A DNA stretch of 64,000 bases from Sulfuricurvum sp. 17-40-25 (lineage in GTDB: Bacteria > Campylobacterota > Campylobacteria > Campylobacterales > Sulfurimonadaceae). Where the stretch lies: contig NCIJ01000003.1 of assembly GCA_002282015.1 (NCBI GenBank), forward strand, positions 124,001-188,000, written 5' to 3'. Shown here piece by piece: positions 4,789 to 41,382 of this stretch; position 1 is the first letter of the stretch, and each line of letters starts with the position of its first letter. A program made the translations under genes and the position numbers. The notes beneath the pieces are model-generated. The model did no database searches and had not been told where the DNA came from. It was given only the letters and a program-made list of their open reading frames with translations.

Positions 4789-5411
4789 GTCAGGGCATGA
4801 AGCATCAATGCTTTATGCAATAGTTCTTTTGCTTCATTTATCTCTAATCCCATCAGATCGATCGGCTCAGAAGCATAAAAATTCAGCACTCCAAATGGCT
4901 TTGGAATCACAAAACGATCCCAACTCCCAAGCTGCCAATAGGAGCTTGGAACACAACTGTAGACAATCACCTTGGCTTGACGTTTTTGAGCCATAATCAC
5001 AACCCCGTCACTCACCGTATAACGAGGTCCTTTTGGACCATCAGGAGTAATGCCTATATCGTACCCCTCTGCTAAGGACTTCAACCCTTGGATCAATACT
5101 TTTGCACCGCCACGAGTAGTGGAACCGTGAATCGTCCCTAAACGAAAAAACGTCATGATACGTGCAATGATCTGTCCGTCGAAATGATCACTGATCAATA
5201 CTTTTGCTTTGGGTGTCTTTCGAAATTGATAATAAAGATACGGCTGAAGCAGCAAATCACCGTGCCAAAAAGCAAAAACAACGGGCTCTTGCGGAATAAC
5301 TTGAGGCATATGAAACTGTTTTCGTGAGGTAAAATAAATAAAGCGAATAAGAAATGCCCCGATAAAAGGGACTAATGTAAGAGCAAGGGTGCGTAAAAAA
5401 CGTTTACGCAA
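4785..5411 (-). CDS. DUF374 lysophospholipid acyltransferase-family protein
   Basis: 208 residues. An N-terminal hydrophobic segment (about 8-28) is followed by AFWHGDLL, the DUF374 version of the acyltransferase HxxxxD region, then [16 protein letters not shown] and [10 protein letters not shown], all family hallmarks. It is expected to be a membrane-associated acyltransferase; the substrate (lipid A or a lysophospholipid) cannot be read from sequence. It overlaps miaB by 8 nt and xerH by 4 nt, forming one transcription unit with miaB and the HP0268-type gene; the same neighbourhood occurs in Helicobacter and Campylobacter (recalled, not searched). Confidence 0.88.
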
Positions 5412-22062: not shown

Positions 22063-22956
22063 ATGAAACAGTTAGCAATTATCGGTTCTACCGCTTCTGG
22101 AAAAAGCAATCTTGCATTAGAGTTGGCGCTTACACGCAACGCTATCATACTTTCTATTGATTCTTTATCCATCTATACCGATATTAATATCGCATCCGCC
22201 AAACCAACAAAAAAAGAACTTGCTCTTGTTAAGCATTTTGGCATTGATGTTCTTCGTCCGGACCAAACTGCCAGCGTTTTTACCTTTATAGATGAATACC
22301 ATCGCGCATGTGCCTATGCCCATAAACATCACAAAAACCTTATCATTGTTGGCGGAAGCAGTTTTTATCTCAAAAGCATGATTGATGGACTTTCCCATAT
22401 TCCCATCATTACCGATTCAGTTCGAGCAGAAGCCTCACTTTTACTGGAAGATGTTCAAAAGGCACACGCGTTTTTAACCAATGTCGATCCGCATACCATG
22501 TCCTCTATTACCACTAACGACAGCTATCGCATTGAGAAAATGCTGCATCTGTATTTGCAAACCAAAACTCCCCCATCACAATGGTTTGCCATGCATCCAC
22601 CCCTTAGTGTCATTACGCAATGCCCTATTTTAAATATTGATATCGAACGTATCCTTTTACGAGAAAGGATTGCTTTACGCACGCAACTGATGATACAAGA
22701 GGGATTGATTGATGAAGTAGCACAGTGTGAACAATTGTATGGACGCCAACCTAACAGTATGAAAGCGATCGGTATGATCGAAACACTGGACTACCTGGAT
22801 GGGAAATGCTCGAGAGAAGAGTTGCATCAACTCATTACAACGCATACGGCGCAATTAGCCAAACGTCAGCAGACCTTTAACACGCACCAATTTACCCTAA
22901 CAGCAAATCAAAACGTTAAAGAGCTACACGCTATTGGAAAAAATCTTTTACAGTAA
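22063..22956 (+). CDS. miaA: tRNA dimethylallyltransferase
   Basis: 297 residues from the ATG at 22063. Adds the dimethylallyl group to A37 of tRNAs reading UNN codons, the substrate later methylthiolated by MiaB (5404-6705). The P-loop is GSTASGKS (residues 7-14); ILSIDSLSIYTDINIASAKP carries the Asp that starts catalysis (usually D-S-x-Q-x-Y; the Gln is replaced by Leu in SLSIY here). GGSSFYLKSM and the 'SMKAIGMIE' near the C-terminus are family motifs. An upstream in-frame ATG (22015) lies inside the palindromic repeats and is rejected. It overlaps the convergent pflA by 9 bp. Confidence 0.94.
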   Translation: MKQLAIIGSTASGKSNLALELALTRNAIILSIDSLSIYTDINIASAKPTKKELALVKHFGIDVLRPDQTASVFTFIDEYHRACAYAHKHHKNLIIVGGSSFYLKSMIDGLSHIPIITDSVRAEASLLLEDVQKAHAFLTNVDPHTMSSITTNDSYRIEKMLHLYLQTKTPPSQWFAMHPPLSVITQCPILNIDIERILLRERIALRTQLMIQEGLIDEVAQCEQLYGRQPNSMKAIGMIETLDYLDGKCSREELHQLITTHTAQLAKRQQTFNTHQFTLTANQNVKELHAIGKNLLQ

Positions 22957-25325: not shown

Positions 25326-26831
25326 TTAGTAACCGCTATTATACACGAATAATGTAATGATTTTTAGAAGAGGGTTAACCGCCACTACAGCGAAGATTGT
25401 CCCAATAGCTGCAATCCCGATAATTGTTTTTAAAGAAAGTGACGCATTGACTAAATAAAATTTTTCATATCCGACTACAGGTTCTTTCATAAACATAAAT
25501 ACAATCAATTTAAGATAATAATACGCCGCAAGAGCTGAATTAAGTGCCATGATAAGGGCAAGAACCGTATATCCACCTGTTACCGCAGAGGCAATGATGT
25601 ATATCTTACCCCAAAACAGTCCAAATGGTGGAATACCTGCAAGGGAGAGCATAAACAATCCCATCATAATCGCAGCCATAGGCATGGTTTTAATCAAACC
25701 TGAGAACTTTTCAAACGGATGATCTGAACTTTGTCCAGCAAGCAGATTTTTTTGTCGACTGACCCACAGCATTGCAAATGCTCCAAGATTGGTAAAACTA
25801 AAGAGCGCCCAATACAAGAAAAGCGCTGTGTTGGCTTGTGTTGTTCCGATCAAAATAGCAGCCATGACAAAACCGGCATGGGATATAGAACTGTACGCTA
25901 ACATACGCTTAACATCGGTTTGAACCATAGCCCAAATATTGGATGCCGTCATGGTAACTACTACCGTAATATAAAGAATGACTTGAAGCCATACAACACC
26001 GCTGTGAACCAAAAATTCAAACAAACGCATGGCAACAATAAACCCTGCAATCTTAGGGACAATGGACATATACCCAGCCAGTGCAGCACTGGATCCCTCA
26101 TATACATCTGGAGTCCATGTATGAAAAGGTACCATTGAGAGTTTAAAACCAAACGCTGCTAGCATAAATGATACTGCAACAAGGACATATCCGATATTCG
26201 CATAATGATCAGCCGCTAATACGGATCCAATTTGATTGATCTCAATCGATCCCGTGATAGCATACAAGATCATTGAACCAAAGGCAAAAAAGCCTGCCGC
26301 TAATGCACCCATTGTGAAGTACTTAACCGCAGCCTCAAATGACTTGGATCGATTATGCAATGCGATCAATGCATACAATGCCAAAGATGCTGTTTCAAGT
26401 CCGACAAAGATCAAGATCAAATTGTCGGTTGCAACCATAAACTGGAATCCTGCAATCATAAACAAAAAGAGAGCGAAATACTCGGGATAATTGTATTCAT
26501 GAAAACGCTTAGACGTTAATGCCAATGGAATAAACAACATCGACCCGCCTACTATGATGACTTGACCCATAATAGCAAGACCATCAATGAGCATCATATC
26601 AAACATACCCGTAACAGGCCCATTTTCTATAAATACATTACCAAAATCGACAACGACTCCTAGATCAACCAATAAGAAGAGCAAGCTTATCATGACATAG
26701 AGGGACTTGTGCAACCCTCCTTTGATCAAATCAATACAAAGAATGGTAAGAGCACCGATGATGGCAATTAGCATTGGTGCTAATGTTGTGACGTTCAGTG
26801 ACGCTAGAGAAACATTTATTGGTTCTAACAT
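25326..26831 (-). CDS. nuoN: NADH-quinone oxidoreductase subunit N
   Basis: 501 residues, about 14 membrane helices; antiporter-like proton-pumping subunit of complex I. The conserved region with Lys in a broken helix is seen (FKLSMVPFHTWTPDVYEGSS), as is the Glu-bearing helix 'FVGLETASLALYAL'. It overlaps nuoM by one base (stop/start), typical of this operon, and is the last nuo gene before pflA. Confidence 0.97.
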   Translation of the reverse strand: MLEPINVSLASLNVTTLAPMLIAIIGALTILCIDLIKGGLHKSLYVMISLLFLLVDLGVVVDFGNVFIENGPVTGMFDMMLIDGLAIMGQVIIVGGSMLFIPLALTSKRFHEYNYPEYFALFLFMIAGFQFMVATDNLILIFVGLETASLALYALIALHNRSKSFEAAVKYFTMGALAAGFFAFGSMILYAITGSIEINQIGSVLAADHYANIGYVLVAVSFMLAAFGFKLSMVPFHTWTPDVYEGSSAALAGYMSIVPKIAGFIVAMRLFEFLVHSGVVWLQVILYITVVVTMTASNIWAMVQTDVKRMLAYSSISHAGFVMAAILIGTTQANTALFLYWALFSFTNLGAFAMLWVSRQKNLLAGQSSDHPFEKFSGLIKTMPMAAIMMGLFMLSLAGIPPFGLFWGKIYIIASAVTGGYTVLALIMALNSALAAYYYLKLIVFMFMKEPVVGYEKFYLVNASLSLKTIIGIAAIGTIFAVVAVNPLLKIITLFVYNSGY

Positions 26832-28384
26832 TAGTATGTCTCCTGTTGTGAATTCTTAGCTACTGGATTACTAAGATTCGGGATACGAGCTTGTGCTTCC
26901 GGTGTTTGTGCCTTATCGTGCATGAGCTGCACTATGGATTCAACACTGTTGCTTATAGGCTCTAGAATTGGTTTTGGGTAAACACCTAACCAAATCGTAA
27001 TAATGACCAATGGAACCAATGCTATTAGTTCAGTTCGATTTACATCTTTTAAATTTTTATTTTCTTCTTTGGTCACATTTCCAAAAAACATTTTTTTATA
27101 CGCACTAAGCATATAAATAGCACCTACGATAATAGCTGTTCCAGCAACGAGGGTAAATGAATGTGATTGTTTGTAAAACCCAAGAAGACTCAAAAATTCT
27201 CCGACAAAGTTAATGGTCAATGGTAATCCAACAGAGGCCATCATCATGATTCCAAAAATCGTTGCATAACGTGGCATTACGGATGCCAGTCCACCAAATT
27301 CAGACATTAGTTTTGTATGACGGCGATCGTAGATCACCCCTACAAGCAAGAACAATGCACCCGATACGACACCGTGTGCGATCATCAAGAAAATTGATCC
27401 GCTGATACCCTCAACGTTAAGAGCAAACGTACCAAGAACAATGACACCCATATGCGATACCGAACTGTACGCTACGACTTGTTTAATGTCTTCTTGCGCA
27501 TAGGCCACCATTGCCGTATAGACAATCATTATAATCGCGAGTGTCGCAATTGGAAACATAAAGAACACAGACGCATCTGGAAACAATGGAAGTGAAAAAC
27601 GTACAAATGCATACGTACCCATTTTAAGCAAAATAGCCGCAAGGATAACCGAACCGATTGTTGGTGCTTGTCCATGTGCATACGGTAACCATGTGTGAAA
27701 TGGAAACATCGGTACCTTAATCGCAAATCCGATGAAGAAGGCCGCAAACAACCACAGTTGGAAATTAAGAGGAAGGATCAAACGATACCATTCGAGAAGT
27801 GAAAAACTCCACTGCCCTGTTGCTTGATAGTAAAAATACGCCATAAACAGCATACCCACCAACATGACGAGTGAACCGGTGAATGTGTACAAGAAAAACT
27901 TGACGGATGCGTAAATACGAAGTGGTCCGCCCCATGCACCAATGATGTACAACATCGGAATCAATGAAAGTTCCCAAAATACGTAGAAGACAATCGCATC
28001 CAACGCCGCAAAAACACCAACCATCGTCATTTCTAAAAAGAGTAATGTGATGATAAGGTCTTTTACACGACGTGTTTCAGTCAATGATGCAATACCTATC
28101 ATTGTGAAAAAAGTGGATAATACGATGATGAATAATGAAATTCCATCAATACCCACTAAGTAATTAATACCAAAAGCAGCGACAAGCGGTGCCTTTTCCA
28201 TAAACTGCATCCCAGATGTCATTGGATCATAAATATTCCACAACCACAAAGAGAGTAAAAATTCAATAGCAGCAACGGTAATACCATAGGCACGTGCGCT
28301 GTCTTTATGAACGATAAATCCAAGCATTGCTGCCAATGCCGGAAAGAAAATTAAGATCGATAAAATGTGTTCTTGCATCAGCAT
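26831..28384 (-). CDS. nuoM: NADH-quinone oxidoreductase subunit M
   Basis: 517 residues. Antiporter-like membrane subunit. The conserved proton-path segments are present: 'YVFWELSLIPMLYIIGAWGG' (Glu), 'AIKVPMFPFHTWLPYAHGQAPT' (Lys) and 'YSSVSHMGVIVLG' (His). It lies between nuoL (4-bp gap) and nuoN (1-base overlap). Confidence 0.97.
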   Translation of the reverse strand: MLMQEHILSILIFFPALAAMLGFIVHKDSARAYGITVAAIEFLLSLWLWNIYDPMTSGMQFMEKAPLVAAFGINYLVGIDGISLFIIVLSTFFTMIGIASLTETRRVKDLIITLLFLEMTMVGVFAALDAIVFYVFWELSLIPMLYIIGAWGGPLRIYASVKFFLYTFTGSLVMLVGMLFMAYFYYQATGQWSFSLLEWYRLILPLNFQLWLFAAFFIGFAIKVPMFPFHTWLPYAHGQAPTIGSVILAAILLKMGTYAFVRFSLPLFPDASVFFMFPIATLAIIMIVYTAMVAYAQEDIKQVVAYSSVSHMGVIVLGTFALNVEGISGSIFLMIAHGVVSGALFLLVGVIYDRRHTKLMSEFGGLASVMPRYATIFGIMMMASVGLPLTINFVGEFLSLLGFYKQSHSFTLVAGTAIIVGAIYMLSAYKKMFFGNVTKEENKNLKDVNRTELIALVPLVIITIWLGVYPKPILEPISNSVESIVQLMHDKAQTPEAQARIPNLSNPVAKNSQQETY

Positions 28385-28388
28385 CTCC

Positions 28389-30278
28389 TTACATCGCCCG
28401 CATTGTTACTGCGTTGTATCCAACAGTAAATGCGATAGCTAGTACCAATAAAACCACTAAACCAATAACCATCCAGCGTAACATACTTGAAAGGTTACCA
28501 TTTTGCATGGTATGTGTTTTTTCACCTGTACGATAGATGACATTCGCAATTCCGTCCACCGTTGCATCAACGATTTTAAGATCAATTTGTTTCCATGCAA
28601 GCTTTGAGAGCTCACGATACGGCTTGGAAAATAACTCATCATACAGTTTAGGAATATAGTATTGGTTGTACAGCAATTGATACAAAAAGCCTGACTCGAC
28701 TTTTGCATCCACTTTTACCGCTTTAGCGTATTTTTTATACGCATACGCAATAGCCGCGATAACAAATAACTGTGTCCCAATCGTCATGATCCAAAACGTC
28801 GTATGGTTATGGATATGGTATTCGATAGCCGGTAATAGATGAGTAACCATTTCATAATACGGTGTTTTGAAAACCATACCGGCAATCACTGCCAATACTC
28901 CCAATGGCGCCATTGCATACAACATAAAGTTGTACGCTTCATGAGGGTGAATTCCGTGTTCTAGATGTCTTTCATCTCCATGGAAGATCAATGCGACAAG
29001 ACGGAATGAATAAAAGGCGGTCAAACCGGCAGTCGCTAGCAATACACTATATAGAATGTAATGCTGCTCTACAAATGCAACCTCTAAAATAAGATCTTTT
29101 GAGAAAAAACCGGCTAGTGGATAGATACCCGCCAATGCGACCGATGCTAACGTCATAAGGATCCATGTCCACTTCATCGGTTTTTTCAAACCACCCATTT
29201 TAAACGGATCCAACTCATCGTGCATAGCATGCATTACATTACCTGCACCTAGGAACAACAAGGCTTTAAAGAAAGCGTGTGCCATAAGGTGGAACAATGC
29301 TACCCAGTATGCTCCCAAACCTGCGGCAACAAACATATAGCCCAACTGTGACAATGTTGAATACGCAATAATACGCTTCATGTCGCGGTTGACCAATGCC
29401 ATAGTCGCTGCAAACATTGCTACAAATGCACCCAATGAGGCAATAACAGTACCAACCTCTGGAATCAGATCATAAATCGGATTTGCACGAACGACTAAAT
29501 AGACCCCAGCTGTTACCATCGTTGCTGCATGGATCAATGCGGATACAGGTGTAGGACCTTCCATCGCATCTGCAAGCCACGTATGCAATGGAAATTGCGC
29601 TGATTTACCCATTGCCCCGATAAAGAGGAAAATCCCGATCCATGTGATAATCGGCATCGGTAAATTAGCAATTTGAGAAAATACCACGTCATACTGTAAT
29701 GAACCAATATTCCAATAGATAATAAAGATACCGATCAACATTGCCAAGTCAGCAATACGGTTCATAATAAAGGCTTCATTAGCAGCCCATGTAGCTGATT
29801 CTTTATGATACCAAAATCCAATTAGGAGCCATGAACACAATCCAACCCCTTCCCATCCGATAAACAGGCCCAGAAAGTTATCACTCATAACCAAGACCAT
29901 CATTGAAAACACAAAGGCCGAAAGGTACGAGAAAAATCGGTTGAACCCTTTGTCATGATCCATGTATCCGATTGAATATATGTGGACTATGGTTGAGACA
30001 ATACTCACAACCATCATCATAACAACACTGACTTGATCAACCACAAATCCAAACGGTATGTAAAGATCTCCAGAAGCAATCCATGTCATCATCTCAACGT
30101 GAACGGTATGTCCTGCCATTACATAATTAAGTAATATTACACTGCTCACAAATGATGTGAACAACAATCCTGAAGCGACGATTCCCGTTACGCTTGTTTT
30201 AGGAGAAGCCGCAAAAAGTGCAGCAAACAGTGAACCTGTTAACGGCGCAAAAAGTGCGATGTATAAATATATTTCCAT
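28389..30278 (-). CDS. nuoL: NADH-quinone oxidoreductase subunit L
   Basis: 629 residues, the largest antiporter-like subunit, including the C-terminal lateral amphipathic helix that runs along the membrane arm (about residues 500-600). Key segments: 'FIGWEGVGLCSWLLIGFW' (Glu), 'GAMGKSAQFPLHTWLADAMEGPTPVSALIHAATMV' in two parts (Lys and following helix) and 'YSTLSQLGYMFVA'. It is 3 bp from nuoK. Confidence 0.97.
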   Translation of the reverse strand: MEIYLYIALFAPLTGSLFAALFAASPKTSVTGIVASGLLFTSFVSSVILLNYVMAGHTVHVEMMTWIASGDLYIPFGFVVDQVSVVMMMVVSIVSTIVHIYSIGYMDHDKGFNRFFSYLSAFVFSMMVLVMSDNFLGLFIGWEGVGLCSWLLIGFWYHKESATWAANEAFIMNRIADLAMLIGIFIIYWNIGSLQYDVVFSQIANLPMPIITWIGIFLFIGAMGKSAQFPLHTWLADAMEGPTPVSALIHAATMVTAGVYLVVRANPIYDLIPEVGTVIASLGAFVAMFAATMALVNRDMKRIIAYSTLSQLGYMFVAAGLGAYWVALFHLMAHAFFKALLFLGAGNVMHAMHDELDPFKMGGLKKPMKWTWILMTLASVALAGIYPLAGFFSKDLILEVAFVEQHYILYSVLLATAGLTAFYSFRLVALIFHGDERHLEHGIHPHEAYNFMLYAMAPLGVLAVIAGMVFKTPYYEMVTHLLPAIEYHIHNHTTFWIMTIGTQLFVIAAIAYAYKKYAKAVKVDAKVESGFLYQLLYNQYYIPKLYDELFSKPYRELSKLAWKQIDLKIVDATVDGIANVIYRTGEKTHTMQNGNLSSMLRWMVIGLVVLLVLAIAFTVGYNAVTMRAM

Positions 30279-30281
30279 TGC

Positions 30282-30587
30282 TTACCCTCGCATCGATGTC
30301 ATAATATCTAGATCGATCTTGCCTGTACGCTTGTACATAACAATCAATAAACCCAGTCCAACTGCAACTTCAGATGCAGCGATCGCAATAATAAAAAAGG
30401 CAAACATTTGTCCTGTTAAATCATTGTGAAAATGGGCAATGGCTGCAAAACCGATATTCGTTGCATTTAATAATATTTCCGTAGCAAAAAAGAGCATAAG
30501 CAAGTTCTTACGACGCATTACCCCAATCAAACCAATAGCAAATAGTACACTTGAAAGTACTAAGTAGTGCGCTAATGTTATTTCCAT
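30282..30587 (-). CDS. nuoK: NADH-quinone oxidoreductase subunit K
   Basis: 101 residues, three membrane helices. Contains the two conserved membrane glutamates of NuoK in 'LFFATEILLNATNI' and 'IAIAASEVAVGLGLLI', which belong to the E-channel linking quinone reduction to proton pumping. Overlaps nuoJ by one base. Confidence 0.97.
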   Translation of the reverse strand: MEITLAHYLVLSSVLFAIGLIGVMRRKNLLMLFFATEILLNATNIGFAAIAHFHNDLTGQMFAFFIIAIAASEVAVGLGLLIVMYKRTGKIDLDIMTSMRG

Positions 30588-31174
30588 CAGTGTGCTCCTT
30601 CTTGACTGTCTGGCTTAGCTTCATTTGCACCCATTAGTGCAATCTCTTCTTCTGCCATCAACGTCAGTGATTTATCCATCTTTTTACCTGCTAATACAAT
30701 ACCTGCAATCATAGCAACCAATAGCATAACCGCCGCGACTTCAAACGGAACCAAAAACTTGGTAAATAAAATCATCCCGATAGCTTGCGAGTTACCTGAT
30801 GCCGCTTCGAGTGGATATTGCGTTTCCAAATGAGTTGAAATGATAGGTGAAATGAATATAAAGACCACTAATGTAGCGGCTAAGACACCCAAGATAAAAA
30901 TGGTTCTTGGATTTTCACGTTTTTCGACCATCGTACGTGTTGTATCAAAAAACATCATACCAAAAGCATATAATGCCATTACGGCACCTGTATAAACAAT
31001 AATTTGGACTACACCTAAAAAGTCTGCCCCTAGCATAAAGAAAAATGCTGAGATAAAAATCATACCAGCAGCCATCGCTGTTAGTGCGTATAACGCCTGT
31101 GATGTCATCACAGTAATTGTGAACATAGCAATCGTTAATGCCGCAAATAGATAAAAAGCAACTACTTCAAACAT
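30587..31174 (-). CDS. nuoJ: NADH-quinone oxidoreductase subunit J
   Basis: 195 residues, five membrane helices. 'LGVVQIIVYTGAVMALYAFGMMFF' is the conserved third helix with the Tyr and the pi-bulge region. The C-terminal cytoplasmic tail is longer and more acidic than in E. coli. Coupled to nuoK by a one-base overlap. Confidence 0.96.
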   Translation of the reverse strand: MFEVVAFYLFAALTIAMFTITVMTSQALYALTAMAAGMIFISAFFFMLGADFLGVVQIIVYTGAVMALYAFGMMFFDTTRTMVEKRENPRTIFILGVLAATLVVFIFISPIISTHLETQYPLEAASGNSQAIGMILFTKFLVPFEVAAVMLLVAMIAGIVLAGKKMDKSLTLMAEEEIALMGANEAKPDSQEGAH

Positions 31175-31184
31175 TCATGTCTCC

Positions 31185-31805
31185 TTAATAGGCAAGCGGT
31201 GTTTTAGTAACACGCTCGTCCTCATGTGGGGTAATTGCACCAAAACCTGGGTACTCTTTTTGCTGTCCTGCAGTTAAGAAATCAAGAGGGGTGAGCATAT
31301 CGTCTTTGATGACGAAGTGCGCACGCTGCTCAGATGCATTTTCATAACGGTCACCATGTACGATAGCTAGTTCCGGACATACTTCAGCACAGTATCCACA
31401 GAAAATACAACGTCCCAAATTGATGCTGTATTCGGTTACTTCTTTGCGGCTTTCTTCATCTATACGTGTGTCCATACGAATACAGTCAGAAATACAGATC
31501 TTTTCACACAAACCACATCCGATACAACGCTCAAAACCTGATTCCCATAATCGTAATAGTTTGTGAACGGCACGGTAACGTGGCCCGATTGGCAGCTTTT
31601 CTTTCGGATACTGTACCGTGTGAATATCAAATTTGATCATCTCACGCATAACGACCCAAAGACCTACAAAAAGCTCTCCCTTTAGAGAACGCTTTACAAC
31701 TTGTTTAAACTTACCCCATCCTGTTTGTGGATATTCTCCCATATCAACATAGTAATAAGCACTTTGCTCACTTACGTTACGATCTGTAAACGGATCTACG
31801 TGCAT
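31185..31805 (-). CDS. nuoI: NADH-quinone oxidoreductase subunit I
   Basis: 206 residues from the ATG at 31805. Carries two 4Fe-4S clusters (N6a/N6b) in the peripheral arm next to the quinone site: CIGCGLCEKICISDC and CIFCGYCAEVCPE. The ATG at 31805 overlaps the nuoH stop by one base (TAATG), and a longer in-frame reading that begins inside nuoH is rejected. Electrons pass from NuoG through NuoI to NuoB. Confidence 0.97.
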   Translation of the reverse strand: MHVDPFTDRNVSEQSAYYYVDMGEYPQTGWGKFKQVVKRSLKGELFVGLWVVMREMIKFDIHTVQYPKEKLPIGPRYRAVHKLLRLWESGFERCIGCGLCEKICISDCIRMDTRIDEESRKEVTEYSINLGRCIFCGYCAEVCPELAIVHGDRYENASEQRAHFVIKDDMLTPLDFLTAGQQKEYPGFGAITPHEDERVTKTPLAY

Positions 31806-32812
31806 TACATGCCTCCTTGAGTTTGAATCAAAATAACTACACCAGTTACAATAACATTGAGCACCGCGATTGGCATCAATACCTTCCAGCACAACCACAT
31901 CAACTGATCGGGACGAACATCAGGCCATGCCGCTCGTGTCCATAAAAAGAAAAAGAAAAAGAAAGCAACTTTTAAAAGTAATTGCAATGCTCCTGCGATT
32001 GAACCATCACCGTATCCACCCAAAAAGATAAGAGCCATTACAAAAGATATAAAGAACATATTGGCATATTCACCAATGAAAAATAAGCCCCATCTCATTC
32101 CTGAATACTCTGTACCAAATCCATCGATAATCTCATGATCATTCGCTACAAGGTGAAACGGCGTACGTCCTGTTTCTGCAAACGCTGCAATCCAAAACAA
32201 GATGAAAGCAACCGGTTGAGACCATGCAATCCAATGGGTAATTCCAGCAGATTGATAGTTATTGATATCTATCAAAGACAATGAACCAACCATCATCAAT
32301 GGTGCCAATAACGCAAGTCCTGTAATAACCTCATACGAGATAAATACCGCAGCACTACGCGCAGCAGAGATCAATGAAAACTTATTAGCGGATGCCATAC
32401 CGCCAAGCAGTGGTCCATAAAGACCAATTGCCATAACTGCCATGACGTATAAGATACCTACATTGATGTCCGATACGATAGGATGAACCGTGTAACCTAA
32501 AACGGTAAATTCAGGCCAAAATGGAATGGCTGCCGCTGCCATAAACGCTGTAGCTGCTGTTATGACCGGTGCTAATTTAAAAATCGGTTTAACCACGTTT
32601 TGTGGAATAATATCCTCTTTTGTAAATAACTTGATCCCATCTGCTGCTACTTGGAGCAATCCATAAGGGCCAACGTGCATTGGCCCCAAACGACGCTGCA
32701 TAAACGCAAGAATCTTACGCTCGAAGTAGGTTCCAAAACCCGCAAGGGCTGAAAAAACCAATAAGATCACAACAATTTTTACAACTGTTTCGATGATAAA
32801 TGCTAGATCCAT
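31805..32812 (-). CDS. nuoH: NADH-quinone oxidoreductase subunit H
   Basis: 335 residues, about eight membrane helices. The quinone-site loops are recognisable: 'ERKILAFMQRRLGPMHVGPYG' and 'FAETGRTPFHLVANDHEIIDGFGTEYSGM' (quoted in parts), rich in Glu and Arg. It forms the quinone tunnel with NuoB and NuoD. Two bp separate it from nuoG. Confidence 0.97.
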   Translation of the reverse strand: MDLAFIIETVVKIVVILLVFSALAGFGTYFERKILAFMQRRLGPMHVGPYGLLQVAADGIKLFTKEDIIPQNVVKPIFKLAPVITAATAFMAAAAIPFWPEFTVLGYTVHPIVSDINVGILYVMAVMAIGLYGPLLGGMASANKFSLISAARSAAVFISYEVITGLALLAPLMMVGSLSLIDINNYQSAGITHWIAWSQPVAFILFWIAAFAETGRTPFHLVANDHEIIDGFGTEYSGMRWGLFFIGEYANMFFISFVMALIFLGGYGDGSIAGALQLLLKVAFFFFFFLWTRAAWPDVRPDQLMWLCWKVLMPIAVLNVIVTGVVILIQTQGGM

Positions 32813-32814
32813 AC

Positions 32815-35301
32815 TTACACCTTTTGAATTGATACATTTGCAAAACGGTAACCGTCAAACAATGCACCAGAATTGATTTGCGTGTCAAATGTTGGAAGAT
32901 ATGGAATCTCACCCTCGATTTTTCCATCAGCGATCACGTTAACAACGATTTCACCTTGTGCCGTTTTGACACGTACACGATCTCCCTCAATCACCCCATT
33001 AGCACTCATGAAAGCAGTCGAAGCGTACAGTCCGCCTGACTCTTTGAGCTGATGTGCTTTTGCCGTAAATGGCGTAAACTGTAATACTGGATTTGCAAGA
33101 TACACCAGTGCATTGCTCATTGCGTTCTTTTCATCAAACGCTATGACGCTTTCATCTCCATTAATCGATACAGATTGAGTTTTAAGGACGTAACCACGTA
33201 CTTCTACCCCTGCATTCGTGTAGTGGTTTGGCAAGCTGTCAAATTCTACACTTTCAAACCCAGCGTTAACTGGAAGCTGTTTTGTGTAGTTAATGGTCAA
33301 TGATTCATTAAACCCAAGTGCATTCGCAATATCGTTAAGTATGTAACCGCCAAATCCTACTGCTGCATTGGTTGGATTAACACGCTTATCAATACTGGTT
33401 AACGTCCCCTCTTGCTGATTAAGAGCAGGCATATCCAAGTCACCATCACCCAGTGCGCTTAATGTGAAGTTCCCGGTTGTGTTATATCCAATCGTGTAGC
33501 TTCCTGCAGTTGTATCTAGATCACAGATCAATGCTGCTCCTAAGGTATTAGAGAGATTAGGAATCATCGTTACATTAAAAGCTGTGTATTTTTCAATCAA
33601 AGCAACAAGACGAGCACAATTGTCAGCATTTGGATGGCTGTACAAATCAGGGCCTACCATCAATGCAAATTTCTCTTTTTTAGCCAAATACTTCGTCAAT
33701 GTATCTGCAAAACCAGCCGGTGCATTCAAAAGATCATAAAGACGGTTATCGTCTACTTCTACTTCTTTGGATACTTTTTTCTTAACTGTTTTTGTGACTT
33801 CTTCACTCACTTCTTCTTCAATGCCGGTTTCTTCGTTTAGAACTTTTTTCACAACCGTTTCAGTTACTTTCTCATCGATTGTTTCTTCTATAGTGACTGT
33901 TTTAGTCGAATGAAAAGTTGCCAGGTAGTCAACGATTTGAGATGGCATTGCCGTTTTGTCACCAAACAAATCTAGCATCAAATACAATGCTGCTTCTTCC
34001 ATCATTGCGGCATGATTAAACTGCGTCACATTTTTAGACATATCATTGATAACAGGATCATTGATTGGGTGGAAATAAAGCCCAGCCCCTTTGTTCATCG
34101 AAATCGCATTGTTCATCGCAAAGCGGGCATTTGGATTATCAGTTTTCAATGCACTCCCGATTGAAACTACAAAATCACTGTCATGGACTTCTTTTAAGTT
34201 CCCGCTGTAAAGTGATTGACCACTAATTGCGCTGTAAGAATTTAAAAATGATTTAAAGATTCTTGCTTCTTCATTGATCAAACGGTAACCGAATTTTTCT
34301 TTGAGGCGCTGTAGGATCATTGCCTCTTCATTCGTGATGGTTGATGTGAAGCTAATCGTATCTGCTTTTTTAAACGCTGCGATTGCCGCGTTAAATTGTC
34401 CTGCATCTTTAGTTACATCGCTGTTTTGGAAATCGTACCCGTAACGTCCAGATCCGCATAATGAAACATAGTTCCATTCGTTCTTAACACGATAGATTTT
34501 ATCCTCAGGATCTTCAACGCTCGTATGCTTGATATCGTAACTGATTTGACACCCTGCACTACAGTGAGTACATGTGGCAGGAACTTGGTGAAGCTCCCAC
34601 GCATTTGATGTGTATTGAAAATCAGTACTGACCAAAGCGCCTACCGGACAAACAGAAGTACACTCCCCACAGTTTGTACAATCAAGTGTAGTGCCTGCAT
34701 TTGGTGCAATCAAAGATTTATTGAGTTTATTCCACATTGCGTAGGCATCTTTTGGCATTGACTCTTTGAGCGCTGGATCAATAGCATCACCACCACGTGC
34801 AACTGTTGAAAGTGCGCCATCTCCGATCATGTCTTTACAGACCGTAATACAGCGCTCACACATAATACACAGTGCCGGATCGTATTTAATCAAGCCCCAA
34901 TCTTGTACTGGTTTGAAGGTATCAGGAATGGAATAGGATTGTGAATCAACCCCTAGTTCTAACGTATAGTTTTGTAGCTCACATTCACCTGACTGATCGC
35001 ACACACCGCACTCTAATGGATGATTTACATCATAAACTTCCATAATCGCACGTTTTTCGTCTTCGATAGTGGATGTAGTCGTGACAACATTCATCCCCTC
35101 TTTTGCTTTTGCATTACAGGCATAGACTTGTTTTCCATCCGCTTCTACTAAACATATACGACATGCCAACGTTGGCGAACAGCGTGACAGGTAACAAATA
35201 GCAGGAATAAAAACTCCATTGGCACGCGCCGCATTTAGGATAAACTCACCCTCTTGCGTTTGAACCGCTTTTCCGTCTATCGTTATTGTTATTTCATTCA
35301 T
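32815..35301 (-). CDS. nuoG: NADH-quinone oxidoreductase subunit G
   Basis: 828 residues. N-terminal 2Fe-2S domain (Cys pattern around residues 36-62), the His/Cys cluster HPLECGVCDQSGEC, two 4Fe-4S motifs (CIMCERCITVC; CTNCGECTSVC), then the start of a molybdopterin-oxidoreductase-like domain with a further CTHCSAGC cluster. That domain has lost its cofactor role in complex I. An unusual Lys/Glu/Val/Thr-rich repetitive insert of about 54 residues (466-519) interrupts it. In Campylobacterota NuoG is the entry subunit because NuoE and NuoF are absent; the electron donor may be a flavodoxin or ferredoxin rather than NADH (literature on Helicobacter and Campylobacter). Confidence 0.96.
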   Translation of the reverse strand: MNEITITIDGKAVQTQEGEFILNAARANGVFIPAICYLSRCSPTLACRICLVEADGKQVYACNAKAKEGMNVVTTTSTIEDEKRAIMEVYDVNHPLECGVCDQSGECELQNYTLELGVDSQSYSIPDTFKPVQDWGLIKYDPALCIMCERCITVCKDMIGDGALSTVARGGDAIDPALKESMPKDAYAMWNKLNKSLIAPNAGTTLDCTNCGECTSVCPVGALVSTDFQYTSNAWELHQVPATCTHCSAGCQISYDIKHTSVEDPEDKIYRVKNEWNYVSLCGSGRYGYDFQNSDVTKDAGQFNAAIAAFKKADTISFTSTITNEEAMILQRLKEKFGYRLINEEARIFKSFLNSYSAISGQSLYSGNLKEVHDSDFVVSIGSALKTDNPNARFAMNNAISMNKGAGLYFHPINDPVINDMSKNVTQFNHAAMMEEAALYLMLDLFGDKTAMPSQIVDYLATFHSTKTVTIEETIDEKVTETVVKKVLNEETGIEEEVSEEVTKTVKKKVSKEVEVDDNRLYDLLNAPAGFADTLTKYLAKKEKFALMVGPDLYSHPNADNCARLVALIEKYTAFNVTMIPNLSNTLGAALICDLDTTAGSYTIGYNTTGNFTLSALGDGDLDMPALNQQEGTLTSIDKRVNPTNAAVGFGGYILNDIANALGFNESLTINYTKQLPVNAGFESVEFDSLPNHYTNAGVEVRGYVLKTQSVSINGDESVIAFDEKNAMSNALVYLANPVLQFTPFTAKAHQLKESGGLYASTAFMSANGVIEGDRVRVKTAQGEIVVNVIADGKIEGEIPYLPTFDTQINSGALFDGYRFANVSIQKV

Positions 35302-35304
35302 AAT

Positions 35305-36198
35305 TCAACTACCCACCCTCATAAGTTTAATTTTTTCAAAGCGATACCCACAATTGGACTCTTCATTAAGTACATTCAGGGCAATTGTCCCCTTAAGTGT
35401 CTCATCAACCACAAACGTTTTAGTACCCTCATACCCATCAATAGTAACAAGCTCACCGCTATTCAAACGTGCTGCAATCGCAAATTGCGCTGAACCGCGA
35501 AGCGTATCGTTATCGGATTGTTTATTGGGATAACATTGATAAACAATAGTTCCGTTGTATTGCGGTAACGGTGAAACAGGATCAAGAACACCCTTTTTCC
35601 TGACATCCAACATCTCAACACTATTACCATCACTGTACTTTGGAGCGATAACCACCGAAAAAGTAGTGACGCTATCTATAACTCCGCATATTTTTGCGAT
35701 ATTAGAACTATTTTTATGATTGAAGAGATCCAAGCCAACTACTAAGGTTTTTTGATGGCTCACAGCAGCTGTCTCAAAAATTGATCTAAATTCTTCATCA
35801 CCAACATTGGACTCAGCGCACAAATATCCCTCATCCAAGTCGTCCAAAAATTGTTGCACAACATCACTTGTCTCACACCCATCCAACAGTGTTTTAGCCA
35901 ACATCGCCACAACACCCTCTTCTGAACCTGCTTCATACTTAACCATCTGCGTAATAATGCCATCCATCAACACATCCTCAAGAGGGTGCATATAGATAAC
36001 TTTTGCACCATTATTACTAGCACTTACAACAGCATCGTAAACTGCCTCATTATCGCAACTTACTCTTCCGCCCAAAACAATAATCATATCGCTTTGCGCA
36101 ATAGCATCACAAGAGCCACTAAAGCCACTTTTACCACCCATACTACTATAGGAAGCTATAAAAGATTGATAAGCCAGCGTCTCTTGATTCACCATCAA
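35305..36198 (-). CDS. NuoF-position protein (HP1265/Cj1574-type), NuoG-like paralogue
   Basis: 297 residues. It stands where nuoF would be but has no FMN- or NADH-binding motif and no 4Fe-4S cysteines. Instead it aligns by eye with the molybdopterin-like half of the adjacent NuoG: 'SFIASYSSMGGKSGFSG' versus 'SFLNSYSAISGQSLYSG', then 'SDMIIVLGG....DN' versus 'SDFVVSIGS....DN', and 'GAKVIYMHPLED' versus 'GAGLYFHPIND', followed by 'VVGLDLFNHKNSSN' versus 'MVGPDLYSHPNADN'. It is thus probably a duplicated and trimmed NuoG domain acting as an adaptor. It overlaps the preceding 76-residue gene by 4 nt. Confidence 0.85.
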   Translation of the reverse strand: MMVNQETLAYQSFIASYSSMGGKSGFSGSCDAIAQSDMIIVLGGRVSCDNEAVYDAVVSASNNGAKVIYMHPLEDVLMDGIITQMVKYEAGSEEGVVAMLAKTLLDGCETSDVVQQFLDDLDEGYLCAESNVGDEEFRSIFETAAVSHQKTLVVGLDLFNHKNSSNIAKICGVIDSVTTFSVVIAPKYSDGNSVEMLDVRKKGVLDPVSPLPQYNGTIVYQCYPNKQSDNDTLRGSAQFAIAARLNSGELVTIDGYEGTKTFVVDETLKGTIALNVLNEESNCGYRFEKIKLMRVGS

Positions 36199-36425
36199 TC
36201 CTTACTTTTGACCACTATGGTCCAGTCCGCTTCGTTAAATTTTAACGAATTCATTAGCTCGAAGCCTTGTTCTTTTACCAAGTCGGCACTTTTTTGAATC
36301 GGTGTAAAATCACCAATTTCGAATAAAAAAATCAACACTTCTTTCGTTGATGTCTCTTCTTTCATAATCTCACCCATACGGTCGTAAAAAGCACCTTTAA
36401 GGTGACGTAAATCATAACGTTTCAT
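36195..36425 (-). CDS. NuoE-position protein (HP1264/Cj1575-type)
   Basis: 76 residues. Occupies the nuoE position but lacks the NuoE thioredoxin-like fold and its four cluster cysteines; in fact it contains no Cys. A small alpha/beta sequence (RYDLRHLKGAFYDR, then VLIFLFEIGDF, ending FNEADWTIVVKS) matches what I recall of HP1264 of H. pylori, a subunit implicated in the alternative electron input of the Campylobacterota enzyme. It overlaps the next gene by 4 nt. Confidence 0.85.
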   Translation of the reverse strand: MKRYDLRHLKGAFYDRMGEIMKEETSTKEVLIFLFEIGDFTPIQKSADLVKEQGFELMNSLKFNEADWTIVVKSKD

Positions 36426-36435
36426 AAGTCTCCTT

Positions 36436-37662
36436 CTAACGGTCTACTTCACCGAAGACGATATTAGTCGTCCCGATGATGGATACTACGTCTGGGATAT
36501 AGTGCCCAGGCAACAAGTCAGTCAAAATTCCCGTGTGCCAAAACGATGGAGCACGTAATTTTAGACGGTACGGGTACGGTCCGCCTTGGCTATTGATGTA
36601 ATACCCAAGCTCTCCTTTAGGAGATTCTGTCGGGATATAGACTTCACCTACCGGTGGACGCATACCTTGCGTAACCAGTACAAAGTGCTGCATCAAGGCA
36701 TAGTTTTGCGTCATAATCTCTAATTTTGGTGCTGAGATGTATTGTGGAGCATGCGCCATAAGTTCAGTCGACGTTCCCTCGTACATATCTGCAACTTGAT
36801 ACAAGATTTTTGCCGATTCGCGCATCTCTGCCATGTAGAGTTTATAACGCGCATAGTTATCACCCTTATCTGAAACAGGGACATTAAACTCTACTTCATC
36901 GTACAGTTCATACGGCTCTTCTTTACGGATATCCCACTGGACACCTGATGCACGTAACATAACACCTGAACAACCCCAGCTCAAAGCCATCTCTTTAGAG
37001 ATCACACCGACATTTTCCATACGCATCAACCAAACACGGTTTTTATCCAAAAGATCTTCGTAATCTTTGATATTCTCTGGTACCTTGTCCAAAAATTTGC
37101 GTAAATCAGTCATGAAGTTATCCGGTAAGTCTAATGGAACACCACCGATACGGATTGCTGCGTGTGTCAAACGTGCACCACAGTAATCTTCAACCAAGTC
37201 CATCAAATACTCACGCTCACGAAACGCGTATAAAAATACAGTCATAGCACCGATATCAAGAGCGGTTGTCGCTAACCAAAAAAGGTGTGACATCAAACGA
37301 TTCACTTCCAAAAGAAGCATACGGATAACTTTTGCACGACGAGGAACATCAAGACCGATCAATTTTTCAACCGCAAGGGCAAAACCATAGTTGTTTGAGC
37401 TTGAAGCGATATAGTCCATACGGTCAGTCGTTGGCATGAACTCATTGTAGATCATGTTTTCTGCCATCTTCTCCATACCGCGGTGAAGATAACCGATATC
37501 CGGATGAGCTTTCGTGATTTGTTCTTGTTGCAAATGCAGCATAAGGCGTAATTGCCCGTGTGCTGATGGATGCTGAGGCCCGAAGTTTAGGACTAACTCA
37601 TTGTCTTCACGATCAAATGAGATGTTTTCAAAAAACGGTCTAAGACGATTGGATTGTTGCAT
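36436..37662 (-). CDS. nuoD: NADH-quinone oxidoreductase subunit D
   Basis: 408 residues, the 49-kDa subunit forming the quinone-binding site with NuoB. Signature N-terminal block '[17 protein letters not shown]' with the quinone-site His, '[25 protein letters not shown]', and the C-terminal '[37 protein letters not shown]' (seen in parts) all conserved. Related to the large subunit of NiFe hydrogenases but without metal ligands. Not fused to NuoC. Confidence 0.97.
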
Positions 37663-37672
37663 TCATGTCTCC

Positions 37673-38479
37673 TTAACGCTGGCGATCAGAGATCACAACG
37701 GATTTCTCTGCATCAAATTTTTCTACCATGAATACACCCTCTTGCTCTTGATACACAAGAGGAGTGTCCGGTTCGCCTTGACTGATATCCGTACCAAATG
37801 GTACTTCATGACCTAAACGTGAAAAACGCTGTGTGTCGTATCTGTCAATACGGGCAGGATCACGATTTTCAGGCCCGATGATCTCTCTGGCTTCTTTACC
37901 AAAGATTTTATCGACTTCGTACCATGCTGCGAACTCATCCCCTTGTAATGGATACGTTTTACGCAATGGGAAACCTTCCCAGTCATCTGGCATCAAAATA
38001 CGTTTCATGAATGGATGATTGTTGACCACAACCCCAAACATGTCGTACATCTCACGCTCAGACCAATCCGCACTACGGAAAAGTTTTTCAACACTTTGGA
38101 TCGCTTCATTTTCATCAATCTTACATTTGATACGGACACGCTTACGTTTTGTCATACTCAACATTTGATAGAAAATTTCAAATTTCCCCTCAGTTGCCAA
38201 CCAGTCAATAGCGCTCATCTCTGAAAGTTGTGTGTATTCGCATTCATTTTTCAGCAATTCAAGAACGGCATAGTTATCTGCTGCATTGATCACAACAACC
38301 ATTTGTTCTACTTGAACGTACGCATCCAAAACATCAAATTTTGCTTTGATAGCTGCTAAATCTGCTGTGAATACGGCATCGTCACTCACTTGAGATTTTG
38401 CAACTTGTGGTGCTACCCAAAAACGGTCTGTGTAATACGATTTTGCTTGGACGTTGTCTTTAGGAGTATAGGCTCTCAT
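37673..38479 (-). CDS. nuoC: NADH-quinone oxidoreductase subunit C
   Basis: 268 residues, the 30-kDa subunit of the peripheral arm. The family core 'ERMYDMFGV' appears as EREMYDMFGVVVNNHPFMKRILMPDDWEG in sequence (residues about 138-165), followed by PLRKTYPLQGDE. It has an extra N-terminal region of about 60 residues and a C-terminal tail compared with E. coli-type NuoC domains. Overlaps nuoB by one base. Confidence 0.96.
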   Translation of the reverse strand: MRAYTPKDNVQAKSYYTDRFWVAPQVAKSQVSDDAVFTADLAAIKAKFDVLDAYVQVEQMVVVINAADNYAVLELLKNECEYTQLSEMSAIDWLATEGKFEIFYQMLSMTKRKRVRIKCKIDENEAIQSVEKLFRSADWSEREMYDMFGVVVNNHPFMKRILMPDDWEGFPLRKTYPLQGDEFAAWYEVDKIFGKEAREIIGPENRDPARIDRYDTQRFSRLGHEVPFGTDISQGEPDTPLVYQEQEGVFMVEKFDAEKSVVISDRQR

Positions 38480-38988
38480 TACATCAACCTTTTTGGTTTT
38501 TGTGAACGAGATGCTGGCTCTTTACGAATTTTTTGCTGAAGCATCATCACCGCATACTGTAAGGTTTCCGGACGAGGTGCACATCCCGGAAGATACAAAT
38601 CCACAGGAATAACACGGTCAACCCCTTGAACGGTTGCATAGGTATTAAACATACCGCCGGTATTGGCACATGAGCCCATAGAGATAACCCATTTTGGCTC
38701 TGTCATTTGATCGTATAAACGTCGAATAAACTCTGCGTGTTTTTTGGTCAATGTTCCTGCTACAACCATCAGCTCAGCTTGACGAGGAGATGCACGAAAG
38801 ATCGTACCAAAACGGTCAAAGTCATAACGTGATGCCCCTGAAGCCATCATTTCAATACCGCAACATGCCAAACCATAAGTTAACGCCCAAATAGAATTTG
38901 AACGACCCCAATTTACGACTTTATCAATTGTCGTTAAAGCTACGGGAAGCCCGCCGTCTTTTAGATAATTTACTTGATGTTGTGCCAT
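38479..38988 (-). CDS. nuoB: NADH-quinone oxidoreductase subunit B
   Basis: 169 residues. Holds cluster N2, the last electron carrier before quinone. Ligands visible: the adjacent Cys pair in [10 protein letters not shown], the Cys of MGSCANTGG and the Cys of LPGCAPRPE. Overlaps nuoA by 19 nt and nuoC by one base. Confidence 0.98.
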
Positions 38989-39359
38989 TCAAGTGCTCCT
39001 TTTTTCCATGCATAAACAAAACCGATTGCTAACAATAAAATAAACGTTAGCATCTCAACAAAACCAAACCAACCCAGCAATTTAAAATCAATTGCCCATG
39101 GAAACATAAAAACGATTTCTACATCAAAAAGTAAAAATAAAAGTGCAAACAGGTAAAACTGCGTTGAAATACGATTTGGCTGGCGAGTAACCTCTGGACC
39201 ACACTCGTAAGGTGAAAGCTTCAATTTTTCTGTATCTTTAGCCGCCAATGCACGGCTGGCTAAACGTGCTAATACTGTCGTCGCATAAAATGCTCCAAAC
39301 GTAATAACAAACAGTACAAATACCCCAAAATAAGGATTTGTGACGTTGTAATGTTCCAT
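38970..39359 (-). CDS. nuoA: NADH-quinone oxidoreductase subunit A
   Basis: 129 residues, three membrane helices. The conserved loop '[13 protein letters not shown]' (usually YECG with Pro-Glu) and the helix '[12 protein letters not shown]' identify NuoA. It is the first gene of the operon; the ribosome binding site AAAAGG precedes the ATG. The operon continues without a gap larger than about 20 bp to pflA. Confidence 0.97.
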
Positions 39360-39645: not shown

Positions 39646-41382
39646 CTAATTGTTTAAAAAGCCCATTGATTTTTCGGTATCAAAATTTCCTTGACGCTCT
39701 TTGTTGATTTCATTGATAAAATCTTCCAAACAAAAGTTTGGCTCTTTTCGTGTTGCCACTGTATACGCTGTATTTTTAACGATCAAATTGATCTGTCCTC
39801 CGGTTAAAGGATACGATAATAATTTTTCGACGTCAAATCCCTCTTCATAGGGTGCATTCTTTGGAAGCATCATGTTCCATAATTTTAGACGCTGCGCCTT
39901 GTCCGGTTTTTTAAACTCAATTTTGTAGTTAAAACGACGTGAAAAAGCTTGATCAATGTTTTCTAAGAGATTGGTGGTAGCAATCAATATTCCTTGAAAC
40001 TTTTCAATCTGTTCTAAAAAAATATTTTGCATCTGATTGTGCATCTGATCTGCTGATGTGCCTGCACCTTGAGAACGTGATGAAAGGAACTGATCCGCTT
40101 CGTTGAGCAAAAGAATCGGTTCGGTCTTGGTCTGTTTGGTCAGATCTGCATAGGTGTCAAATATTTTACGGACATTTTTTTCTGACTCTCCCACATACAT
40201 TGAAAGGATCTTAGAACAGTCAAAACTCAATACCTGCCGTTTTAGTGAACGTGAAAGTGAGTGTGCTGTAAGCGTTTTACCCGTTCCAGGAGGACCGTAA
40301 AAAATAATGCGTGCATCGATTCCCGCTTTTTTATCTTTGATTCCCCATTCATGAAGTTTTGCAATGACTTCACGATCAAGCTGATGCATCAAGTTATCAA
40401 GCGTCTTTTCCGTCGCAGGATTAAGGACCACATTTTCCAAAGAAGTAAGGGGTTCAATAAGCTCAAAAATCTCCTGCTCTTTAATAAGCATATCCAGCTT
40501 TATTTTACGCGTTTTTTTCTTTTTTTGCGGATGCATAATAGACTGCAGTACCTCATCAACAATGTAAAAAGCTCTACTGATTCCCCCAAAAGGATTGAGC
40601 ATCTCTTCATAATCAATAACATCATCATTAATAAGACGCGATCCGTCTTCAAGTAAGGCACGGTTTTTGATTCGCTCATAATCATCAAAACTGACAAGAT
40701 CAATAAGGGTATTCATCTCTCGTAAACTACCCTCGGTCGAACTGTATTCTTCTTTGAGCAGGGCCAAAAATATGACCTGCTCTTTTGGCTCCAACTTTTT
40801 TTGTTTGAAAAAACGATCCAGTACTACCTCATGAGAAGTTTGGGTAATCCGCTCTTCAATACGTTTTTCTAACAAATCAAGCTTGCTTTGAATACGGTTG
40901 ATCCCTAACGAATGCCCATTTCCATTATTACGAATAACCGACATCTTTTGGTACAGTTCTATACGAAAAAACTGATCTTGCAAATATTCCAAATGATCCG
41001 CGTACGGTTTGATCTCAGGCAATGTCATCTCTAAAGATCCTTCTTCAAGAAGCTTCATAAAGATGGTCGTCAACGCAATAGGAGTATTGAACAATTCCAA
41101 CTGTGAGAGTTCACTCATCTTGATCGGAGTAAAAGAGTGGTGTGTGATCCATCCAAGCTCTAAGAGTGTTTTTACCTCTCCAAAATGGCTGAGATAGGAA
41201 TAATCGTCGGGACCGTACAGTTCTTGAAGCAGTTCTGCTACGACCACATCCTCTTGAGACTGCAAAAATTTGCGTGTCAACAGTTGTAAGACCTTCCCCT
41301 CATCAACAGTACATTTGAGCTGTGAAAAAATCTCTGACTCCTCAATTGAGGGGTTTTCTAAAAAATCGATCAAATATTTCAA
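39646..41382 (-). CDS. AAA+ ATPase, Campylobacterota-specific type
   Basis: 578 residues. The N-terminal 280 residues are helical and match no family I recognise. The AAA+ module is at about 350-560: Walker A GPPGTGKT (near 364), pore/substrate loop region SMYVGESEKN, Walker B LLLLNEADQF (near 426, with Asn in place of the usual Asp before Glu), sensor-1 ATTN, and arginine-finger region FSRRFNYKIEF. The module is close to the Cdc48/FtsH/SpoVK group. A similar protein occurs in Campylobacter jejuni (Cj0377, recalled). Substrate and role unknown; no protease domain is present. Confidence 0.85.
   Translation of the reverse strand: MKYLIDFLENPSIEESEIFSQLKCTVDEGKVLQLLTRKFLQSQEDVVVAELLQELYGPDDYSYLSHFGEVKTLLELGWITHHSFTPIKMSELSQLELFNTPIALTTIFMKLLEEGSLEMTLPEIKPYADHLEYLQDQFFRIELYQKMSVIRNNGNGHSLGINRIQSKLDLLEKRIEERITQTSHEVVLDRFFKQKKLEPKEQVIFLALLKEEYSSTEGSLREMNTLIDLVSFDDYERIKNRALLEDGSRLINDDVIDYEEMLNPFGGISRAFYIVDEVLQSIMHPQKKKKTRKIKLDMLIKEQEIFELIEPLTSLENVVLNPATEKTLDNLMHQLDREVIAKLHEWGIKDKKAGIDARIIFYGPPGTGKTLTAHSLSRSLKRQVLSFDCSKILSMYVGESEKNVRKIFDTYADLTKQTKTEPILLLNEADQFLSSRSQGAGTSADQMHNQMQNIFLEQIEKFQGILIATTNLLENIDQAFSRRFNYKIEFKKPDKAQRLKLWNMMLPKNAPYEEGFDVEKLLSYPLTGGQINLIVKNTAYTVATRKEPNFCLEDFINEINKERQGNFDTEKSMGFLNN

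Follow-up and report, generated by a model that had tools for sequence, protein, structure and literature searches.

The gene between the 76-residue E-position gene and nuoG in the complex I operon of a Sulfuricurvum genome (G000; 2.3 Mb, 50 contigs) is very probably the trimmed remnant of a full second NuoG, and this remnant (g2) likely has a role beyond complex I. The window, i.e., the whole analysed stretch of 64,000 nucleotides, carries on its minus strand an operon with the order nuoA-B-C-D, E' (76 aa), g2, nuoG and nuoH to nuoN. The E' gene (PF16514), followed by g2 before nuoG, has the arrangement of the 'nuoXY' pair. The following features were recognized:

35305..36195, minus strand: g2, probable C-terminal remnant of a second NuoG (model match, BLASTP, comparison of relatives' starts, hhalign)
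36195..36425, minus strand: E', the 76-aa E-position protein (PF16514; homologue of HP1264, PDB 2lxr)
32815..35301, minus strand: nuoG, the paralogue retaining the Fe-S domains (Pfam and NCBIfam matches)
36436..39359, minus strand: nuoD, nuoC, nuoB and nuoA (open reading frames; order conserved across the annotated loci)
25326..32812, minus strand: nuoH to nuoN (open reading frames; H to L conserved across the annotated loci)
22948..25305, minus strand: 785-aa gene past nuoN, presumably PflA-like, which in nuo-less genomes marks the former nuo locus
39646..41382, minus strand: AAA-ATPase-like gene before nuoA, directly upstream of orphan g2 in three genomes of family f9
36186..36198, minus strand: putative deletion junction, with the E' stop (36197-36195), a start codon matching the F* start of siblings and the G2 interior (compared with L001-L003 and the untrimmed L070)
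35794..35937, minus strand: G2/g2-specific block YEAGSEEGVVAMLAK...LDEGYLCAESNVGDEE (alignments; loose pattern count)

The open reading frame of g2 as listed covers 35305-36198 on the minus strand (297 aa) and begins with TTG, which is not the likely true start. The ATG at 36195 (296 aa) was found only in the window among the four close relatives compared, and the GTG at 36192 (295 aa) is conserved in all four, the window counted in.

A preliminary description of this DNA had pointed to four blocks shared by g2 and the adjacent NuoG. All of them were found and are co-linear (ASYSSMGGKSGFSG / NSYSAISGQSLYSG, SDMIIVLGG / SDFVVSIGS, GAKVIYMHP / GAGLYFHP and VGLDLFNH / VGPDLYSH), two fitting the proposed patterns only loosely. 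BLASTP of g2 against the neighbouring NuoG gave two separate co-linear blocks (3e-11 and 4e-07), and the NCBIfam model of Campylobacterota NuoG matched g2 with an E-value of 2.1e-32. The profile-profile comparison that had been proposed as a check (hhalign, 15 diverse g2 against 8 NuoG proteins) gave a probability of 99.5 and an E-value of 5.4e-23, and the match spans the whole of g2 and columns 373-849 of the NuoG alignment, i.e., the C-terminal half. A chance or compositional likeness is excluded by the two separate BLAST blocks together with the profile-profile match. Model match, BLASTP blocks and hhalign thus agree with the earlier view of g2 as a trimmed NuoG paralogue. As had also been described, g2 shows no Fe-S, FMN or NADH motif, and the Pfam search gave no match above the cut-off.

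In the family-model search, g2 matched formate dehydrogenase families weakly. Its fold model, built from eight sequences, is of low confidence (mean pLDDT 57), with residues 1-185 moderately confident (mostly pLDDT 60-80) and the remainder weak; its PDB matches were formate dehydrogenases and E. coli NuoG (best E-value 9e-06, NuoG 5e-05). Along its entire length, g2 is homologous to the C-terminal molybdopterin-like half of NuoG/Nqo3 and shares its fold family, but it is devoid of the N-terminal Fe-S domains and of about 120 internal residues, and has the G2-specific block where NuoG carries a charged insert. With molybdopterin oxidoreductases such as formate dehydrogenases, g2 has a Rossmann-type domain in common (PDB match of the fold model), whereas the Fe-S cluster and any sign of a bound molybdenum cofactor are absent and the fold is partial. 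The insert in the NuoG of the window (32815-35301) occupies residues about 455-525; it is charged and repetitive (EETIDEKVTETVVKKVLNEETG...) and is missing from g2.

The origin of g2 became apparent from close relatives. The first homologue search covered 60 genomes, with a match in 58; 37 were Sulfuricurvum. In 33 of the 37, the homologue is a long protein, G2 (746-842 aa; one of 477 aa is cut by a contig end), and the short g2 was found only in G000, G010, G023 and G031. G2 contains the Fer2_4, NADH-G_4Fe-4S_3, Fer4_Nqo3 and Molybdopterin domains and is therefore a complete NuoG. Residues 2-187 of g2 align with residues 338-524 of the G2 of L013, and residues 191-297 with 646-767; therefore, g2 lacks the Fe-S part at the N-terminus and about 120 residues from the interior. 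In the protein tree, g2 groups with G2 and not with NuoG, and it has the G2-specific block.

In these relatives, a protein of about 681 aa, here called F*, is encoded between E' and G2. It combines the NuoF C-terminal Fe-S domain (PF10589) with GltD-like Fer4_20 and Pyr_redox_2 (FAD/NAD(P)) domains, and the Pfam domain search found no match to the NuoF FMN domain. F* resembles GltD/NfnB-like flavoproteins in its Fer4_20 and Pyr_redox_2 part and NuoF in its C-terminal Fe-S domain, without a match to the NuoF FMN/NADH domain, but differs from both in that the fusion is encoded within the nuo operon beside the second NuoG. The NuoF-family search in Sulfuricurvum detected F* in 32 of the 33 untrimmed genomes; the four trimmed genomes gave no match. 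In G033, the sole untrimmed genome without an F* match, G2 lies near the contig start, so the F* gene may be cut off.

In the trimmed genomes (the window, L001, L002 and L003), the E' stop is followed by GTG AAT CAA GAG. In the untrimmed sibling L070, it is followed by the F* start, GTG AGC AAA, and AAT GAA GAA occurs inside G2. The simplest event for the clade of the window would be one in-frame deletion of about 3 kb, which left the F* start codon in place and joined it to mid-G2. Such a deletion would have taken F* except for this codon, together with the first ~335 residues of G2 (the Fe-S half); the loss of about 120 internal residues need not belong to the same event. The idea that g2 was born by duplication of the molybdopterin-like half alone does not fit these data, since an entire second NuoG appears to have come first and been trimmed later. 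Nor does g2 stand in the place of NuoF as a replacement, as had been suggested, because the NuoF counterpart is F*, which relatives encode in the gap between E' and G2 and which this clade no longer has. No match to TIGR01959, the NuoF family model, was obtained anywhere in G000, and g2 had no NuoF-family match. An identification of g2 as NuoF is ruled out by the lack of any NuoF family or FMN/NADH domain match.

Across Campylobacterota, 96 loci were annotated (the window and 95 fetched), and 93 could be judged for F*/G2 pairing. F* and long G2 occur together in 40 loci (in two, G2 is cut by a contig end), and the 53 loci without F* comprise 52 short g2 and one form of 483 aa (G047). The remaining loci are G038, with neither F* nor G2/g2, and G025 and G057, cut by contig ends. 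Hence, each of the 93 judgeable loci has either both F* and the Fe-S half of G2 or neither of them, with zero exceptions. The N1b/N5 Fe-S patterns were found in 39/39 long G2 and 0/75 short forms, the latter including two contig-cut long forms; short g2 proteins range from 209 to 361 aa. As shown by comparison, the common operon plan appears to be nuoABCD - E' - F* - G2 - G - HIJKLMN. A survey of 397 genomes (completeness at least 90%) showed that several entire families and portions of others lack F* and long G2, absence being called from six-frame searches of assemblies, some of them fragmented. All genomes compared represent one phylum.

Several loci deviate in other ways. In L037 (G038), E' lies directly before a 767-aa NuoG, both G2 and F* being gone. 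The F* of L111 (G093) and L112 (G205), from two genera of family f14, differs in its N-terminal part; the frames are of 733-735 aa, and the query matches from about residue 150 onward only. At G382:C43:62721-64955 and G231:C5:141303-143552, G2 lies within open frames of 1418 and 1432 aa, where it is perhaps fused to a neighbouring nuo gene. In L114 (G213), NuoG is in two frames (315 + 538 aa), and F* and long G2 are retained.

Two trees were used to estimate the number of trimmings. The first was built from nine Nuo proteins, concatenated, of 77 genomes (2424 columns); it requires nine changes between the long and the short state. The second, of G/G2/g2 proteins, has 109 rows and 300 columns and excludes six Sulfuricurvum G2 as well as G045, G391, G025 and G057, which are cut by contig ends; here, g2 requires seven changes. 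These counts alone carry no direction. In the protein tree, NuoG forms one clade (100*), the g2 of the window is nested in Sulfuricurvum G2 (99*), and the g2 of family f14 goes with the f14 G2 (95*); starred branches force at least three changes. The short forms of families f9, f11, f13, f16 and f20 cluster (support 94), so a shared trimming is possible for them. Since FastTree was used for both trees and some of their branches are long, at least three trimming events is the safe count. The reverse order, with a short g2 ancestral in the phylum and F* and long G2 gained later and perhaps moved between families, would accord with this cluster, which may reflect early shared trimming or gene exchange, and with the f16 genomes, which have short g2 only. 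It is nevertheless very unlikely: the alignment places g2 inside G2 (itself a complete NuoG homologue), the Sulfuricurvum and f14 short forms are nested among long ones, and the junction in the window uses the F* start codon.

The occurrence of g2 was then compared with that of complex I. Genomes with a weak or empty NuoG search were tested for NuoD and g2. There were 50 genomes without a NuoD orthologue (NuoD bearers show 64-100% identity), and g2 was tested in 48 of them, G069 and G343 being left out. It was present in 39 of these 48 genomes without epsilon-type NuoD, and the rule that g2 occurs only where epsilon-type complex I is present thus fails. Seven of the 39 (G044, G082, G154, G304, G065, G156 and G336) encode a fused NuoC-NuoD of 36-39% identity, which we read as canonical NADH-type complex I, and therefore 'without complex I' holds in the strict sense for some of the 39 only. 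No NuoD-like match whatever was obtained in 18 of the 39, others having hydrogenase-like matches. In the remaining nine of the 48 (six of genus g39, G101, G172 and G043), g2 was not found, and some of these bacteria can therefore do without it. The occurrence of E', by contrast, parallels that of complex I, E' being present in 10/10 nuo-bearing genomes tested and absent from 37/38 nuo-less ones. In G136 (L140), which has no NuoD, a 50-aa E' fragment lies beside an intact g2 (4084-4932, minus strand), and this genome may represent a loss of complex I caught midway.

Reading frames are intact in all 34 orphan g2 loci. The PflA-like gene lies within about 1 kb in 21 of them, the AAA-ATPase gene directly upstream in three, and neither flank gene is present in 10. 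Orphan g2 beside the old nuo flanks indicates that the nuo genes were removed around it in many genomes. As a clue to function, the neighbourhood was uninformative, as the neighbours are old nuo flanks or unrelated genes, depending on the family. For nine close pairs of orphan g2 (dS under 0.4, out of 29 pairs computed), omega was 0.11-0.23, which indicates purifying selection. The other 20 pairs (dS 0.5-1.2, omega 0.18-0.94) are mostly inter-family and saturated; they include G044/G082, with an omega of 0.67 at a dS of 0.52. In the clade of the window, omega of g2 is 0.10-0.26 and that of NuoG 0.04-0.06; the constraint on g2 is thus relaxed, its omega being several times that of NuoG. After trimming, g2 has reached a dN of 0.396 relative to the sibling G2, and NuoG a dN of 0.062.

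The accelerated change after trimming, the relaxed omega, the very variable length (209-361 aa) and the loss of g2 in genus g39 and others are what would be expected of a functionless, decaying remnant on its way to being lost. We regard this as highly improbable, given that omega is well under 1 in 15 close pairs, that the frames are intact in all orphan loci and that g2 was retained after the surrounding nuo genes were removed. The preliminary description had g2 cap complex I as a pseudo-dimer partner of NuoG and receive flavodoxin. As a purely complex I subunit, g2 would be expected between E' and nuoG wherever the operon is present and F* lost, as is observed; a natural fusion of E' and g2 in one 352-aa frame exists (L098:4208-5263, plus strand), and a passage in PMC4178425 reports that Cj1574c of C. 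jejuni mediates flavodoxin input. Against this stand the 39 of 48 NuoD-less genomes that keep g2 under purifying selection, and long-chain flavodoxin was not detected in the genome of the window or in f16. In the species of the window g2 may cap complex I, but capping can hardly be its sole function, because g2 persists in those genomes, and a role confined to complex I is therefore unlikely.

Based on the above results, we suggest, as an overall explanation that is somewhat more likely than not, that g2 is a second-NuoG remnant acting as a cofactor-free adaptor with a pseudo-molybdopterin fold, with a role that extends beyond complex I. The proposed action as a docking or scaffold protein is much more tentative. 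By any motif seen, g2 would carry no electrons itself. Docking could take place through the conserved YExxSEEGVxALLAK / LDxGYLSAESNxGEEE face and the C-terminal barrel. In a loose pattern search, this block was found in 97/115 G2/g2 and 0/79 NuoG, and in alignments it is what the shortest g2 forms retain. In cells with complex I, g2 and E' might be located at the distal end of this enzyme, where electrons would be delivered by reduced ferredoxin (or by flavodoxin in genomes that encode it). The two proteins probably touch where both exist, because L098 encodes them fused. Since a passage in PMC6269979 reports that HP1264, the E' homologue, binds FMN, a flavin at the entry might be carried by E' and not by g2. 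In L127 (6530-7114, plus strand), E' has a long C-terminal tail rich in lysine, alanine and glutamate (195 aa). It is also proposed that g2 interacts with a partner in the cytoplasm that is present even in cells lacking complex I; this would account for the retention of g2 after loss of the nuo genes. A 2-oxoacid:acceptor oxidoreductase or its carrier is a plausible candidate. The oxidoreductase itself was found in 46/46 genomes tested, with or without g2, and being universal is uninformative as a discriminating partner.

Concerning the carrier, the electron donor had been expected to be flavodoxin. The model of long-chain flavodoxin (TIGR01752, the type that the search covered) had no match in the genome of the window or in 4/4 f16 genomes tested, and it matched in the trimmed Sulfuricurvum G010 and in 6/6 genomes of the g2-less genus g39. 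Long-chain flavodoxin does not track g2 and was rejected as its universal partner. As the genomes of the window and of f16 have no TIGR01752 match, flavodoxin is not required for the existence of g2. Ferredoxin would be the likelier carrier in Sulfuricurvum, and a passage in PMC4585668 argues likewise for Sulfurospirillum.

The E'/g2 pair is described in passages of PMC4178425 and PMC6682613 as the NuoEF replacement in Campylobacter and Helicobacter. The second gene of 'nuoXY' there, Cj1574c (C. jejuni)/HP1265 (H. pylori), lies like g2 between the 76-aa gene and nuoG, is similar to g2 in size and likewise lacks a cofactor motif, and, judging by operon position, the short forms of f11 and f14 would correspond to it. 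In the literature found, these proteins are termed NuoF-like, electron acceptors or NuoX/Y, whereas g2 is here regarded as a NuoG remnant, and the g2 of Sulfuricurvum differs from them in arising by a separate, more recent trimming. None of the literature passages found states that Cj1574c/HP1265 are NuoG paralogues, and these passages contain no mention of a second NuoG, F*, trimming or the survival of g2 without complex I. According to a passage in PMC6682613, A. butzleri has canonical nuoEF in place of nuoXY. Judging by the orphan g2 of the f9 genomes, the second nuoXY gene may remain in bacteria of this kind. In a TraDIS study, according to a passage in PMC10077673, Cj1575c proved essential in two species, C. 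jejuni and C. coli, and not in C. lari.

It is also conceivable, though rather improbable, that the ancestral complex I of Campylobacterota had two NuoG subunits together with F*, an NAD(P)H flavoprotein of the Nfn/GltD type, as a second input arm beside the ferredoxin entry, possibly bifurcating or confurcating. This arm would have been dismantled repeatedly by like trimming, and its cofactor-free tip, g2, co-opted for a cytoplasmic function that is conserved, may be essential and outlives complex I. Weerakoon and Olson reportedly found in 2008 that Cj1574c is essential and the nuo genes dispensable. Such a result would fit g2 outliving complex I, and the co-option of g2 would explain it.

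The literature found states no origin for the NuoF-position proteins of Campylobacter and Helicobacter, and their reading as second-NuoG remnants supplies one. This reading predicts a fold and an interface and points to relatives, in Sulfuricurvum and its family, in which the input module is still complete. Furthermore, annotation of g2-type genes as NuoF is unwarranted, and their presence is not proof of complex I. The occurrence of g2 without complex I splits the question of what feeds the epsilon-type complex I into two separable ones, namely the substrate of F*-G2 and the own job of g2.
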